From: Hamadaea tsunoensis DSM 44101
GTDB taxonomy: Bacteria; Actinomycetota; Actinomycetes; Mycobacteriales; Micromonosporaceae
Direction: 5' to 3'
Length of the DNA: 64,000 nucleotides
Assembly: GCF_000428945.1 (NCBI RefSeq)
Contig: NZ_AUAX01000020.1
Location: forward strand, 124,001 to 188,000
Each line of letters opens with the position of its first letter. The stretch's first letter is position 1. Position numbers and translations under genes: made by a program. Shown one piece after another: positions 59,500 through 64,000 of the stretch. The notes below the pieces were generated by a model, which did not search any database, was not told the origin of the DNA, and saw only the letters and a list, made by a program, of their open reading frames with translations.

Positions 59500-60027
59500 T
59501 CAGCTGACGTAGAGGCCGGTCAGCTCGACGTTCTTGTCCAGGGCGGCGGTGCCCGGCCGGGGCAGCGTGTGCTCCACCGGTACGCCGTTCTGGTAACCGA
59601 AGATGGTGACGCCCTTCATCTTGCCGGCCTGGCCGGAACCGTTGAGCCGCGACCAGACCGCCTGCGCGAACCCGAACACGGGATCGACCTTGTGGGGATC
59701 GTCCTCGTCCAGCGCGCAGGCCTCGAACAGGACGCCGTCGGGCTTCTGCCGCAGGAGCGAAAGCATCCCGGCGAGCTCATCGGCATGCCAGCCCCACGGG
59801 TCGTTGCGCTTGCCGCTGCCGCCGATCTCGGTGTCGTTGCCGTGGCCGACGAGGCACAGCGATTCGCCGGCCGGCAGCTTCGCCAGCGTGTCGCTCAGCT
59901 GCCTGGTCGCCTGCGTCTGGTCGTAGCCGGGGTCGAGGACGACGATCTGCCCCCATGCGCCGGAGCCGGACCGGGCACTGGTGTAGAACCGCACGATCTT
60001 CGGGTCCTTGGTGATGATGATCAGCAT
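59500..60027 (-). CDS. Stand-alone clan CD (C80/CPD-like) peptidase-fold protein, copy 2
   Basis: 175 aa from ATG 60027. It shares the order MLIIITKD, FYTS, GAWGQ, LCLVGHGNDTEIGGSG, PWGW, FEACA, DPVFGFAQA with its neighbour. A His in V-G-H-G and a Cys in E-A-C, 42 residues apart, with GWHADELAGML between, resemble the autoprocessing cysteine peptidase domain (C80) of MARTX and clostridial toxins, and caspases, by order and spacing. The length is close to that domain alone. No signal peptide or toxin domain is attached. Catalysis is an inference. Confidence 0.8.
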   Translation of the reverse strand: MLIIITKDPKIVRFYTSARSGSGAWGQIVVLDPGYDQTQATRQLSDTLAKLPAGESLCLVGHGNDTEIGGSGKRNDPWGWHADELAGMLSLLRQKPDGVLFEACALDEDDPHKVDPVFGFAQAVWSRLNGSGQAGKMKGVTIFGYQNGVPVEHTLPRPGTAALDKNVELTGLYVS

Positions 60028-60093
60028 GTGCTCCCCCTCACGGTTTGCCTGTCTTGACTGATGAGGGGGTCCGTGAGCTGGGCAGATACGCCG

Positions 60094-60615
60094 TCAGTGG
60101 ATCACGTACGGGATCAGCTCGACGCTTCGCCCGATCGTGGCCGGGTTGGGCAGCGAGTGCTCGGAGTCGGTCTCGTTGATGTACCCGTAGACCGTGCAGC
60201 CGCTCATCCGGCCCGCCTGCCCGTGCCGGTTGAGCTGCTGGGCGAGCGCCTGGGCGAAGCCGAAGACCGGGTCGATCTTGGTGCCGTCCTCCTCTTCCTC
60301 GGCGCACGCCTCGATGAGGACGGCCGTGGGCCGGTGCGGCAGGGCGGCCAGCATCGGGGCCACGTCGGCGTAGCTCCAGCCCCACGGGTCGCGGGTCTTG
60401 CCGCTGCCGCCGATCTCGGTGTCGTTGCCGTGGCCGACGAGGCAGAGCGGTTCGTTGGCGCCGAGCCGGCTGAGCGCCTTCTTCAGCGCGTTCGTGGCCC
60501 GCTCCTGATCGTAGGTGTCGTTGAGCTCGATGACCTGTCCCCAGGCGCCGGAATTGGAGCGCGTGCTGGTGTAGAACTGCCGGATCTTCCGGTCCTTGGT
60601 GATGATGATGAGCAT
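60094..60615 (-). CDS. Stand-alone clan CD (C80/CPD-like) peptidase-fold protein, copy 1
   Basis: 173 aa from ATG 60615. A tandem paralogue of the next gene. GHGNDTEIGGSGKTRDPWGW carries the candidate His, and VLIEACAEEEEDG the candidate Cys 42 residues later. The N-terminal motif MLIIITKDRKIRQFYTS and the C-terminal VFGFAQALAQQLNRHGQAGRMSGCTVYGY are kept in both copies. It lies 125 bases after the DUF3105 gene in the same direction, so it may belong to the RiPP-like transcription unit, perhaps as leader peptidase. That is a guess from position. Confidence 0.8.
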   Translation of the reverse strand: MLIIITKDRKIRQFYTSTRSNSGAWGQVIELNDTYDQERATNALKKALSRLGANEPLCLVGHGNDTEIGGSGKTRDPWGWSYADVAPMLAALPHRPTAVLIEACAEEEEDGTKIDPVFGFAQALAQQLNRHGQAGRMSGCTVYGYINETDSEHSLPNPATIGRSVELIPYVIH

Positions 60616-60740
60616 CAGGCCCCCTCGGGATCGACTGGTGCCACTCCATCAAGGTCTGGCCGCTCCGCCGAGAGTGGTGACGATTTGCTGACACGGCGTC
60701 ACTCGCAGTGCTGACGCCGGCGGTCACCCGTGCGGGTGGT

Positions 60741-61328
60741 TCAGTCGCTGTAGGACGGTGCGACGACGCAATCCGTGGCGCCGTTCTGCCAGGCGTGGTT
60801 GTAGCGGCCGGCGAGCTTGGTGATGAAGGCGACGATCGCCTTCTCGTCGAGCGTGTCCAGCCGCTGCAGGCGCTGCCAGGCCGACAGCGCGATGCCGTGG
60901 CCGAGGTCGGGGTAGGGCGCGACGACCACGTCCCGCGGATGCTTGCGCCCGATCCGTTCCAGCCTGTCGATGTCCTGGGCCGACACGTCCGGCGCGTACT
61001 GGAGCATGATGTGGCCGTGCTCGAGCACGTGCACCTGGAGTTCGGGCAGGATCGGCTCGCGGTAGACGCCCGGCGTGACCACCCGGGGCGAGTGCGGCCC
61101 GGAGGTGGGCGGCATCGTCCGGTAGGGATCGTGCCCGGCGCCTTCGTAGGGGATGTGGTTGTTGCCCTCGAACTGTTCCGGCGTGCCGGGCAGCTGGTCG
61201 CACGGCAGCGCGGCGGTCTGGGCGGCCGTGTGGGCGAGGACGCCGACGCCGAGGCTGGACATGGTGATGATGCTGAGCGTGGTGACGGCGATGCTGACAG
61301 CCGTGCCCAGCCAGCCGCGGCGGGTCAC
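60741..61328 (-). CDS. DUF3105 membrane-anchored protein
   Basis: 195 aa from GTG 61328, overlapping the previous stop as GTGA. One N-terminal membrane helix (LGTAVSIAVTTLSIITMSSLGVGVLA), then the DUF3105 signature: HIPYEGAGHDPYRTMPPTSGPHSP, GVYREPILPELQVHVLEHGHIMLQYA, and a C-terminal CVVAPSY. The domain has conserved His, Glu and Cys but no known activity. Coupling to the M50-like gene suggests shared function outside the membrane. Confidence 0.85.
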   Translation of the reverse strand: MTRRGWLGTAVSIAVTTLSIITMSSLGVGVLAHTAAQTAALPCDQLPGTPEQFEGNNHIPYEGAGHDPYRTMPPTSGPHSPRVVTPGVYREPILPELQVHVLEHGHIMLQYAPDVSAQDIDRLERIGRKHPRDVVVAPYPDLGHGIALSAWQRLQRLDTLDEKAIVAFITKLAGRYNHAWQNGATDCVVAPSYSD

Positions 61329-62533
61329 GGCAGCGCTCCGGCGGCGCGGCGGCCGCGCAGCCAGTTGCGGACGGCGACGCCGAGCGGCAGCGTCACGTTG
61401 AGCAGGGCGAAGACGAGCAATCCGATCCCCTCCCACCAGTACGCGCTGCCGAACGGAGCGCCGATGAGGACGCCGGCCGCCCAGCCGAAGACGACCTTGG
61501 CGCTGGGCAGGAAGAAGTGGAGGAAGAACCAGGCCATCCAGATCAGGCCGCTGACGTAGAGCAGCCGGTACCACCGGGCGACGCGCAGGTCGCGGGCGTG
61601 GGCGTCGCGCAGGATCGCGGCCTCGGCCGGAGTGAGCCGCCGGAACAGCCGCTTGACCGACAGCCGCGTGATCTGGTGGAGGTTGCGGCAGCCCGTCGCG
61701 GTCGCCATCACCAGGTACATGTCCGTACGCAGATACGCCATCGTCTGGAACGCGAGCTTGGCGACCTGGCTGAAGACCACCATCGCCAGCAGCCGGGCGA
61801 ATCCGGGGGACATGTCCAGCCAGCCGCGCGACCAGGCGAACCGGGGCGCCACGGCGGAGAAGAGCAGGACGCAGTCGACGGCCATCCCGGCGAGGAACGG
61901 GCTGTAGCGCTTTTCCGGCGGCAGCGCCCACAGGCCGGACAGGTCGGTCTCCAGGACGGGGAAGATGCCCCGGCGTTCGAGCCGCAGCTGTGACGGTACG
62001 CCGACCGCCGCTCCGGCCAGCGCGTGCCAGATCTCGTGCACGACGGTGAGCGCGATGACGACGACGTTGGTGACGATGAGGCTGAGCACGACGTCGGGGA
62101 AGAGGAAAGTGTCCTCATAGGACGGCAGCAGCGACGGTTCGGCGAGGAACATCACGCCGGTGGCGAGGAGGCAGGCGGCGTAGCAGGTCCAGGCGACCCG
62201 GCCGAACAGCGGGCGGACGAACCTCGCCGGGATCCGCGACACCGACCAGCTGCGGCCGCCCCGCTCCCGGCGGTCCTGGATCATGCCCGAGTCGACGAGG
62301 ACCTCGGCGAAGTCGAGCGCGTCGACGGGTTCGCCGGTGGTGCGCTCGATCTCGTCGGCCGCCTCCGCGACGGTACGCCCGGCCGCGAACAGCTCGACGA
62401 GCCGCGCGCCGACCTCGGGCACCACGACGAACGTGCCGCTGGCCGGGTCGCCGACGACGAACTCGTCCTCGTCCTCCTGGCGTACCACGAGGTGGGCGAC
62501 GTCCAGGCGGCTGGCGGGGCTCAGGGCGATCAT
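61325..62533 (-). CDS. M50-like membrane metallopeptidase with N-terminal PqqD-like domain
   Basis: 402 aa from ATG 62533, overlapping the E1 stop by ATGA. Residues 1-90 resemble a PqqD/RRE winged helix (DVAHLVVRQEDEDEFVVGDPASGTFVVVPEVGARLVELFAAGRTVAEAADEIERTTG). About seven membrane helices follow. HEIWH near 166-170 is the zinc site, and AGMAVD is a likely second-motif Asp. The two-part layout suggests binding of a leader peptide and proteolysis or export at the membrane. Confidence 0.85.
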   Translation of the reverse strand: MIALSPASRLDVAHLVVRQEDEDEFVVGDPASGTFVVVPEVGARLVELFAAGRTVAEAADEIERTTGEPVDALDFAEVLVDSGMIQDRRERGGRSWSVSRIPARFVRPLFGRVAWTCYAACLLATGVMFLAEPSLLPSYEDTFLFPDVVLSLIVTNVVVIALTVVHEIWHALAGAAVGVPSQLRLERRGIFPVLETDLSGLWALPPEKRYSPFLAGMAVDCVLLFSAVAPRFAWSRGWLDMSPGFARLLAMVVFSQVAKLAFQTMAYLRTDMYLVMATATGCRNLHQITRLSVKRLFRRLTPAEAAILRDAHARDLRVARWYRLLYVSGLIWMAWFFLHFFLPSAKVVFGWAAGVLIGAPFGSAYWWEGIGLLVFALLNVTLPLGVAVRNWLRGRRAAGALP

Positions 62534-63633
62534 CGGGGCGCCCCGACCCAGCCGCAGGTGGCGCAGGTGCGACCGGGTTCCGGCCGGACGGCGTAGTGGT
62601 AGGTCAGGTCGGTCAGGCTCAGGTGGAACATCCGGCCGCGCGTACTCGTGGGGATCCCGGTCAGGTGGTAGACGGCGTCCAGCGCGGCGACGTGTCCGGT
62701 GAGGTTGGCCGACGGCGCGATCACGGCGTGCCCGTCGAAGGCGAACAGGTCCTCGGGCCGGCCGCCGTGCTCGTCGGCCAGCCGGTCGGCCACGCTCGGC
62801 AGGCAGTCGGGGCAGCACGTCTCGCCGGGCACGAACAGGCCGACGACCGCCATGGGGCCGGCGTACTGGGCGAGCATCCAGGGGGTGCCGGTACGCAGCG
62901 CAGCCTTGTTCGTCCACTCGCGGATGAGGTGGCGGGGCTGGTCGGCGCAGAGCACGAGCAGGTCCTGGTCGTGCATGAGCGCGGCGGCGGACTCGACCGA
63001 GTCGATGCGGACCTCCTGCCCGGTGACCTTGGTGTACGAGTTGAGCCGGCGCAGCCGTTCGACCGCCACGGAGACCTTGGGCAGGCCGATGTCGTCCTCC
63101 GTGTACAGCAGCTGCCGGGTGAGGTTGCCCTCCTCGACGGCGTCGAAGTCGACGCAGTGCACGGCGCCGACGCCGGCCGCGACCAGGGAGGCGGCGACGG
63201 CCGATCCGGTGCCGCCGAGCCCCGCGATCACCACGCGGCTGTTCTTGAGCTTGGCCTGCACGTCATACGGCGAGGTACGCGGAGTCAGGTCCACCCAGGC
63301 GTAGTAGGTCAGCGCCCGGTCGTACCGCTCGACCTCGGCCGCGCTCAGTTCGGCCGGTACGCGGGCGGCGGCGTCCTCGACGTAACCGGCGTCGATGATC
63401 GTCTGGATCGTCTCCGCGGTGTCGGCCGGGTCGGCATCGGGGTACGCGGTACGCAGGTCGGCGACGATCGCGTCCCGCGTACGCGTGCCGTCCATCAGGC
63501 CGAGCAGCGCCCACAGGGAGCCGTCCTCGTCGTCCATCTCGGCGCCGATGCCCAGCTGCCGGCCGCCGATGCTGATCAGCGTCGGGGTGAGCCGCATCGG
63601 TTTGTGGATGCGCTTGATCCGTGGTCGCAACAC
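62530..63633 (-). CDS. E1/ThiF-family adenylating enzyme with N-terminal RRE-like domain
   Basis: 367 aa. GTG 63633 was chosen because GGAGG (63643-63647) is 9 bases upstream. Residues ~15-95 resemble a winged-helix RiPP recognition element (RLTPTLISIGGRQLGIGAEMDDEDGSLWALLGLMDGTRTRDAIV ...). The E1 domain has VVIAGLGGTGSAVAASLVAAGVG near 136 and DFDAVEEGNLTRQ near 160, the canonical ATP-binding features. Two CxxC pairs (CPDC and CATC) give a zinc site. It resembles the MccB and PaaA kind of RiPP enzymes, which adenylate a peptide. Confidence 0.9.
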   Translation of the reverse strand: MLRPRIKRIHKPMRLTPTLISIGGRQLGIGAEMDDEDGSLWALLGLMDGTRTRDAIVADLRTAYPDADPADTAETIQTIIDAGYVEDAAARVPAELSAAEVERYDRALTYYAWVDLTPRTSPYDVQAKLKNSRVVIAGLGGTGSAVAASLVAAGVGAVHCVDFDAVEEGNLTRQLLYTEDDIGLPKVSVAVERLRRLNSYTKVTGQEVRIDSVESAAALMHDQDLLVLCADQPRHLIREWTNKAALRTGTPWMLAQYAGPMAVVGLFVPGETCCPDCLPSVADRLADEHGGRPEDLFAFDGHAVIAPSANLTGHVAALDAVYHLTGIPTSTRGRMFHLSLTDLTYHYAVRPEPGRTCATCGWVGAPR

Positions 63634-63664
63634 TCCGTCGAACCTCCGTCGAGACAGAACGGCC

Positions 63665-63747
63665 CAAGTACTGAAGGCGCCCAGGTACTGAAAGGCGCCC
63701 AGATACTGAAAGCGCCCAGGTACTGAAAGGCCGAGGTACTGAACGGC
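63665..63747. repeat. Five tandem ~17-bp repeats between precursor and E1 genes
   Basis: Five imperfect units near AGGTACTGAAAGGCGCCC, period 17-18, in the gap between the precursor stop and the E1 start. Unlike a CRISPR array there are no unique spacers. It may be a transcript-control region or a slippage-prone spacer. Confidence 0.75.
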
Positions 63748-63760
63748 CCGGATACGAGGG

Positions 63761-63793
63761 AGCCGGGGCCAGGCTCGCGCCGTGGCCCCGGCT
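63761..63793 (-). terminator. Stem-loop after the precursor peptide gene
   Basis: Perfect 11-bp arms AGCCGGGGCCA (63761-63771) and TGGCCCCGGCT (63783-63793), 11-base loop, 9 bases past the precursor stop on the minus strand. No U-tract. The position suits an attenuator that lets the precursor be made in excess over its enzymes. Confidence 0.6.
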
Positions 63794-63802
63794 CGGCGGC
63801 TG

Positions 63803-63922
63803 TTAGCCGCAGACCTCGTTCCGGCAGCCCGGGTCGACGACGATGACGGCCGTGGTCTCCAGCCGCTCGAGCTTGCGGACGACGACCTTGGACGGCTTGC
63901 GGGTCTCGACGGTCTTCTCCAT
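63803..63922 (-). CDS. Putative RiPP precursor peptide
   Basis: 39 aa from ATG 63922 with GGAGG 5 bases upstream. The leader-like front is charged (MEKTVETRKPSKVVVRKLER), then LETTAVIVV, and the end is DPGCRNEVCG with two Cys. Too small for usual gene calls, but the ribosome site, the adjacent RRE-bearing E1 and M50 genes and the stem-loop after it all support a real precursor. The C-terminal CRNEVCG is the likely modified core. Product unknown. Confidence 0.7.
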   Translation of the reverse strand: MEKTVETRKPSKVVVRKLERLETTAVIVVDPGCRNEVCG

Positions 63923-64000
63923 GGTTTCCTCCTATGGATGGGGAGAAACGGGGTCCGAGGGGTGCACCACTCGCTTGCGAACCATGGAAACATTGATCGA

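Follow-up and report, generated by a model that had tools for sequence, protein, structure and literature searches.

A candidate ThiF-like adenylyltransferase RiPP operon in Hamadaea tsunoensis, pairing RRE-bearing E1 and M50 enzymes

Towards the end of a 64,000-nucleotide stretch of the 9.48 Mb genome of Hamadaea tsunoensis DSM 44101 (contig NZ_AUAX01000020.1, positions 124,001 to 188,000; the whole stretch is called the window here) lie four genes, all on the minus strand (63922 down to 60741), encoding a short precursor peptide, an E1 enzyme and an M50 peptidase that both begin with a RiPP recognition element (RRE; RiPP, ribosomally synthesised and post-translationally modified peptide), and a DUF3105 protein. 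We lean, if not strongly, towards reading this set as an operon for a RiPP of the ThiF-like adenylyltransferase (TLAT) group, in which docking of the leader would be followed by adenylation of the peptide C-terminus, formation of a macrocycle and cleavage of the leader by the M50 enzyme.

The gene set had been proposed in a sequence-only reading, as a 39-codon gene with a good ribosome site together with genes for an E1/ThiF enzyme, an M50-like peptidase and a DUF3105 protein, and it is confirmed here: all four genes were located (Table 1), and the 4-base overlaps claimed among the last three agree, at the E1-M50 junction and again at the M50-DUF3105 junction, with both the coordinates and the letters. 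The precursor, MEKTVETRKPSKVVVRKLERLETTAVIVVDPGCRNEVCG, has AGGAGGAAACC (with the ribosome site AGGAGG) immediately 5' of its ATG; its leader holds VRKLERLETT at residues 15-24, leaving AVIVVDPGCRNEVCG as the presumed core, with the boundary placed by alignment. The window precursor can be regarded as no chance open reading frame (ORF), because it is 97% identical in another genome of the same genus (G1013) and its counterparts lie beside the E1 gene in all 12 named loci described below. Coding-type conservation (pN/pS below 1 in 21/21 pairs tested, range 0.11-0.91) and the ribosome site likewise point to a genuine gene. For the E1, the GTG at 63633 (367 residues) is a better candidate start than the ATG at 63597 (355 residues), because GGAGG lies upstream and the protein then begins VLRPRIKRIHKP, resembling the MRRPRIKPEH start of its relatives.

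Table 1 Positions of the four genes and of the RNA hairpin in the window
Feature	Positions	Strand	Basis
Precursor peptide, 39 residues (39 codons)	63803..63922	-	in 12/12 named E1 loci; AGGAGG before ATG
RNA hairpin directly 3' of precursor stop	63760..63794	-	folding energy; function inferred
RRE-E1 (ThiF-like adenylyltransferase), 367 residues from GTG	62530..63633	-	PF00899, profile, model
RRE-M50 membrane metallopeptidase (site-2 protease type), 402 residues	61325..62533	-	HEIWH 166-170, RTD 269-271
DUF3105 protein	60741..61328	-	N-terminal hydrophobic segment, then probable thioredoxin-like domain

Scanning with the window E1 gave 12 named loci, from Kribbella, Micromonospora, Streptomyces, Allorhizocola and Labedaea, and the expected co-occurrence of precursor, E1 and M50 is seen in every one, the precursor and the M50 gene both being present in 12/12 and the DUF3105 gene in 11/12 (it is absent from Labedaea, where the precursor match is weak, E 0.014, and was identified by its leader; in L040 it is partial, at a contig end). 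When all ORFs from -5 to +8 kb were compared among the 12 loci of the subfamily to which the window belongs (subfamily A), as far as the available sequence extends, E1, M50 and DUF3105 were found in all 12, and the commonest ORF families outside their span reached only 6/12 (an aldo/keto reductase) and 5/12 (Micromonospora synteny); statements below about genes common to loci refer to this comparison. The aldo/keto reductase gene lies upstream of the precursor in L035, L038, L039, L041 and L042 and farther off in L045, and is not present in the window. In the alignments, L041 was omitted for DUF3105, and L040, L039 and others are missing from some. Within the genus, the four genes recur together in G1013 (90-97% identity). 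The locus is patchily distributed, as neither G993 nor G1030 contains a close M50 and one (E ≤ 1e-100) was found in 7/200 family genomes only; the 2/396 genomes with an E1 match at E ≤ 1e-60 in a search of the phylum are an undercount, five first-look candidates having been scored per genome.

When 394 genomes of the class were searched instead with a precursor profile, 27 places reached E ≤ 0.1, spread over 22 genomes. At the 16 best (E ≤ 0.0033) an E1 homologue lies within about 1.5 kb in 15 cases and an M50 in 10; since the window and L053, both among the 16, had contributed to the profile, the independent figure for E1 is 13/14. At the sole exception, L081, neither E1 nor M50 nor DUF3105 is present in 13 kb of sequence, and among the 11 weaker places (E > 0.01) two have both enzymes and nine neither. 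The conserved small peptide expected of homologous loci was thus found in the named, same-genus and wider-class loci. Of 249 genomes in the order searched with the M50, 31 gave a match, and in those inspected loci where an E1 gene stands beside the M50 gene the precursors carry the same leader or one like it, mostly (V/I)RK(L/V)(E/D)xxETT, the peptides being about 23-45 residues long across the class. A regular expression for this leader, derived from the same peptides, matches 21/22 E1 loci, and gives no match in five shuffles of those loci (which preserve single-base content only), in positions 1-59000 of the window or in 149 kb of M50 loci without E1 (partly overlapping, four genomes being present twice). 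Taking as core the residues after ETT, EAT or RLT, which is an assumption, there are 36 distinct cores from E1-associated loci, counting identical ones once and omitting L081 (no E1) and a further, longer ORF in L050 whose end is uncertain.

The E1 protein matches PF00899 clearly (Pfam, E 1.7e-42), and both profile and structure comparison place its fold with MccB, MoeB, PaaA and ThiF: the best PDB matches of the family profile are MccB and, from residue 6, PaaA, and for the AlphaFold model (pLDDT 81.8) the first 15 Foldseek matches are all MccB, with PaaA next. Arg91, GxGGTG, NLxRQ, Lys174, Asp219 and two CxxC pairs are invariant in 11/11 aligned E1s, and the catalytic-type residues of the enzyme are apparently intact. 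Given that MccB is the best match by both routes, a microcin C-like peptide-nucleotide, with AMP joined through a P-N bond and a peptide carrying a translation-blocking warhead, has to be considered, and two of the 36 cores do end in Asn. However, the residue on which MccB acts is a C-terminal Asn (PMC12150305), whereas the other 34 cores end otherwise (that of the window in Gly); McC-like clusters mostly encode precursors of seven residues (PMC6495379), far shorter than those seen here, and no immunity-type gene is common to the loci, which together make this reading improbable. It is hardly probable at all that the peptide acts as a sulfur carrier or in the manner of ubiquitin, its C-terminal Gly being adenylated en route to a thiocarboxylate or to conjugation with a protein or lipid: peptides of this length are too short for a beta-grasp domain, genes for a sulfurtransferase, E2 or JAB protein are not common to the loci, and no free catalytic Cys is evident in the E1, because C148 and the two CxxC pairs are the only invariant cysteines. 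The RRE domains, moreover, point to leader dependence. Among the 25 of 32 matches listed from a PADLOC search for defence systems, all those touching the locus were E1-E2 models that cover the E1 domain, with no others.

The winged-helix or RRE-type N-terminal domains that had been suspected on both enzymes are upheld by family profiles, which link each to solved RRE structures: that of the E1 matches PaaA residues 21-91 (E 0.00074) and that of the M50 protein the lasso-peptide RREs TfuB1 (0.0013) and TbiB1 (0.0083), while the Pfam PqqD family stays below threshold for each (E1 0.0048, M50 0.003). In the model the E1 domain comprises two strands followed by three helices, with residues 12-18 at low confidence. 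The M50 protein has HExxH, the distal Asp and several predicted membrane segments, HExxH and RTDxY being invariant in 18/18 aligned proteins, which have several hydrophobic segments. Its HExxH region compares with RseP at 0.19, and Pfam Peptidase_M50 matches a relative (L064, 2e-06) and not the window protein. In L109 (G971:C1) the matched stretch of the M50 gene holds two in-frame TGA codons, reflecting either a broken gene or a match that overruns the gene end. The DUF3105 protein matches PF11303 clearly (Pfam, window proteins, E 1.8e-28) and consists of one N-terminal hydrophobic segment and a following domain without CXXC, which is probably thioredoxin-like; because of the membrane segment, we would guess that it acts outside the cell. 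Elsewhere in the source genome (L002:785-2298) a DUF3105 gene is followed by a DUF305 gene, which may hint at a general DUF3105 role.

On the favoured TLAT reading, VRKLERLETT would be the docking site for the RREs that begin both enzymes. Leader binding by the two RREs is supported, at the level of sequence, by the profile matches and by the (V/I)RK motif, since EnfB is reported to need (V/I)RKA in its leader and to activate the C-terminal carboxylate (PMC12250964). With ATP, the E1 would then adenylate the precursor at its C-terminal carboxylate (Gly39 in the window). That this, and not a side-chain carboxylate, is the group activated seems most likely, because 14/36 cores have no internal Asp or Glu, so that the C-terminus is their only core carboxylate; EnfB and IndF have been shown to work in this C-terminal mode, and the same fact disfavours a general side-chain mode such as that of GrcB. 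The last residue of the cores is Gly in 20, Ser in 6, Ala in 6, Asn in 2 and Thr in 2, and Lys occurs in none. A strict rule of C-terminal Gly was considered and rejected, as L044 ends in Ser and other cores in Ala, Ser, Asn or Thr.

The acyl-adenylate would next be captured within the peptide, giving a macrocycle with loss of 18 Da, for which IndF, forming a ring with its C-terminal Ile (PMC12150305), provides a parallel; this is the leading inference, though a weaker one than C-terminal adenylation, with an external amine as the main alternative. In the window subfamily the simplest nucleophile would be the conserved Cys33, yielding a seven-residue CRNEVCG thiolactone. Subfamily-A cores read (D/E)PGCR(N/D)xxC(G/S) (that of L036 carries a glycine insert), and both cysteines are present in all 11 named precursors, of which 10 end in Gly and one in Ser. 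This pattern, together with the membrane protease and the thiolactone-forming, ThiF-like GrcB (PMC12250964), would also suit a pheromone resembling the autoinducing peptides (AIP), with the DUF3105 protein as its surface partner. That is a special case of the favoured reading, and its chances overlap with those of the whole; we hold it to be possible but doubtful, as the four-gene relative L109 is free of Cys and no receptor kinase is common to the loci.

L109 is instructive in a wider sense: it keeps all four genes (E1 60%, M50 54%, DUF3105 52%), yet its core, QQIRWDLEG, aligns with CRNEVCG without a single Cys. The cysteines therefore matter to the window subfamily and are inessential to the class (Cys occurs in 16/36 cores), so that the earlier description of the precursor as Cys-containing stands for subfamily A, and does not extend to the class. 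A suggested tie between DUF3105 and Cys cores, which fits subfamily A and L050, was likewise rejected, being broken by L109 and by Cys cores with no DUF3105 match (L070-L072). In Cys-free subfamilies some other nucleophile would be needed, for example Asn, Arg, a backbone amide like the one that reacts in EnfB, or the newly exposed N-terminus. This N-terminus could furnish a single chemistry for the whole class, in which the E1 adenylates the C-terminus and the M50 cut frees the core N-terminus to close a head-to-tail ring of about 6-21 residues. That would explain the small or short polar last residue, the lack of Lys and the lack of a common side-chain nucleophile in the 36 cores, and, if true, would amount to backbone cyclisation by an E1 and a site-2 protease with a lasso-like logic; we nevertheless rate it as quite unlikely.

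Returning to the proposed TLAT pathway, the RRE-M50 enzyme would cut near ETT, within the membrane, and release the core outward, much as MpaP, an RRE-dependent intramembrane peptidase, removes the daptide leader (PMC10036551); this precedent and the conserved motif at the leader end are the grounds for placing the cut there. The membrane-anchored DUF3105 protein would then act extracellularly on the product (in folding, carrying or binding it), which is the least certain step.

It must be said that several observations weigh against the scheme as a whole or against parts of it. No exporter gene is common to the 12 subfamily-A loci between -5 and +8 kb, and no M50 was seen within 1.5 kb at six of the 16 best precursor places. 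Compared directly, the RRE profiles of the two enzymes are only weakly alike (hhalign probability 46.7), and in many of the 21 pairs the precursor pN/pS is only moderately below 1. The Cys-free core of L109 tells against thiolactone formation as a chemistry common to the class. Finally, Cys, Lys, Ser and Thr are all missing from six of the 36 cores; there is thus no single nucleophile of that sort for the class, which makes intramolecular capture less secure, and an external nucleophile would suit as well.

Those six cores bear directly on the alternative in which no ring forms and the C-terminus is capped, either by joining an external amine or amino acid or by appending a pearlin-like unit that M50 later cuts off, since capping needs no internal nucleophile. 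EnfB amidates the activated C-terminus with available amines (PMC12250964), and the M50 enzymes TglG and TmoG are reported to cleave the C-terminal residue off a scaffold peptide (PMC10885120). Against this, among further genes none that might provide an amine or act as a PEARL ligase is common to more than 6/12 subfamily-A loci, the family that reaches six being the aldo/keto reductase; comparison of ORF families across the same regions gave no PEARL amino-acyl ligase, a search for PEARL domains not having been made. The cores differ greatly between subfamilies, unlike those of a mere scaffold, and RRE-M50 enzymes have a precedent as leader peptidases in MpaP (PMC10036551). Capping is accordingly thought unlikely.

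As regards known systems, the locus has a ThiF/E1 domain, an N-terminal RRE fused to it and a conserved-leader precursor alongside, and it falls in the TLAT RiPP group as published, with MccB, PaaA, GrcB, EnfB and IndF (PMC12250964, PMC12150305). The earlier statement that no named class has this gene set thus needs qualifying: the kind is a published one, although the branch was not found in the literature. No description was found there of an E1 and RRE-M50 pairing in actinobacteria, of the ETT leader or of these cores (Figure S1 of PMC12150305, where more RRE-ThiF clusters are depicted, may draw the branch), nor any mention of DUF3105 in the literature searched. With EnfB, IndF and GrcB the window shares the E1 fold, an RRE fused to a ThiF-type E1 and a short adjoining precursor, and with EnfB also the (V/I)RK leader motif (PMC12250964); it differs in being actinobacterial, in having an RRE-M50 partner where those have transporters or an M16 peptidase, in the leader mostly ending in ETT and in the absence of the WWxxI or NWYFI of enterofaecin and IndF from all 36 cores. 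MccB and PaaA are the best structural matches of the whole E1 (PaaA also of the RRE alone), but core sequence and length differ, as do the RRE-M50 and DUF3105 partners. Daptides share the fusion of an RRE to an intramembrane site-2 protease, MpaP (PMC10036551), whereas the window precursor has VRKLERLETT and not an ELExMEAP leader, ends in Gly and not Thr, and is accompanied by an E1, no common gene fitting the Mpa oxidative decarboxylation set. Lasso peptides provide, in TfuB1 and TbiB1, the solved structures closest in sequence to the M50 RRE, but there is no lasso cyclase, because only E1, M50 and DUF3105 are common to all 12 subfamily-A loci.

What is gained is the definition of an actinobacterial TLAT branch, with 36 cores, a common leader motif and two RRE enzymes, the E1 and an intramembrane protease, that can be tested together; their pairing allows the coupling between activation and leader removal to be tested directly. 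Some 27,400 candidate RRE-ThiF fusions have been counted and one studied (PMC12150305), and the five TLAT enzymes described in two papers each have their own chemistry (PMC12250964, PMC12150305), to which the diversity of the present cores suggests more may be added. In a maximum-likelihood tree covering 29 loci, with good support for 14/26 inner branches, core types follow the clades of the E1, and the distances of E1 and of M50 are correlated (Spearman 0.46, against a maximum of 0.23 in 2000 permutations), to which shared ancestry contributes. Among individual cores, those of Labedaea (GQRANG), G139 (VLRNHDG), G414 (GWRVIGAGG) and four loci with (A/S)(L/V)(N/S)SNPSG may be mentioned, together with those from plasmid collections (four records with E1, the best place of each being inspected, out of 6 places): SWRDGGG from Nonomuraea, AQSCPRCA and AVCHEDVPCS from Streptomyces, NSPCANAS from Actinacidiphila and GLPCSGNGAS from Nocardia. 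Leaders vary somewhat, reading KVE(R/D)IEAT in L051, L053 and L055 and VRKVEQTRLT in L050. L053 (L053:3834-6224, G000:C13) is a second E1 and RRE-M50 locus in the source genome itself, with a precursor of 24 residues, MVIVITKVEDIEATAIHQRDTDLA, that ends in HQRDTDLA. NCBIfam gave no match for the M50, DUF3105 or C80-like proteins, the window precursor or seven other precursors.

Hairpins between a RiPP precursor gene and the enzyme genes are a frequent arrangement. The one in the window (53 nt folded, -35.1 kcal/mol, z -4.6) has a counterpart in the same-genus locus L107 (-35.2, z -3.7) and is perhaps an attenuator or stabiliser that would yield an excess of precursor. Between precursor and E1 there is also a 17-base tandem repeat (4.8 copies, 63662-63743), which looks like a lineage-specific insertion, the gap being about 85 bases shorter in L107. 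Past position 64000, where the sequence-only reading advised a look for further pathway genes, a TetR gene comes first and then further ORFs.

The sequence-only reading had also attached to the locus two C80-like proteins, encoded in tandem on the minus strand at 59500-60027 and 60094-60615. They are 58% identical and carry GHGND and FEAC/IEAC, which we take to be a caspase-like His/Cys pair, and one of them matches Peptidase_C80 below threshold (E 0.26). As pathway genes they were rejected: they were not detected in the available stretches of the 12 named loci, they occur in 1/12 subfamily-A loci (the window itself) and not in G1013 of the same genus, and neither E1 nor M50 lies within 1.5 kb of their relatives in G1045 and G1003.

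RRE-M50 genes also occur with no E1 nearby (L052, L054, L056-L059, L065 and L066). All of these except L052 adjoin peptides of the form MKKI(x)(V/I)RKxxxVRLTxAA or similar, in five copies in L059, and a TPR protein of 650-760 residues lies 3' of the M50 gene in L052, L058 and L066, with ORFs of similar size in others; the E1-less loci with MKKI-type peptides are likely to be another RiPP family with the same type of M50 enzyme. In L062, L063 and L060 an RRE-M50 gene with no E1 match stands beside peptides of 24-25 residues, MKKLVVRKLEPIKTSA(N/A)ADCVP(A/S)AA and MKKLTVRRLESVKTSAVAAACVVS.

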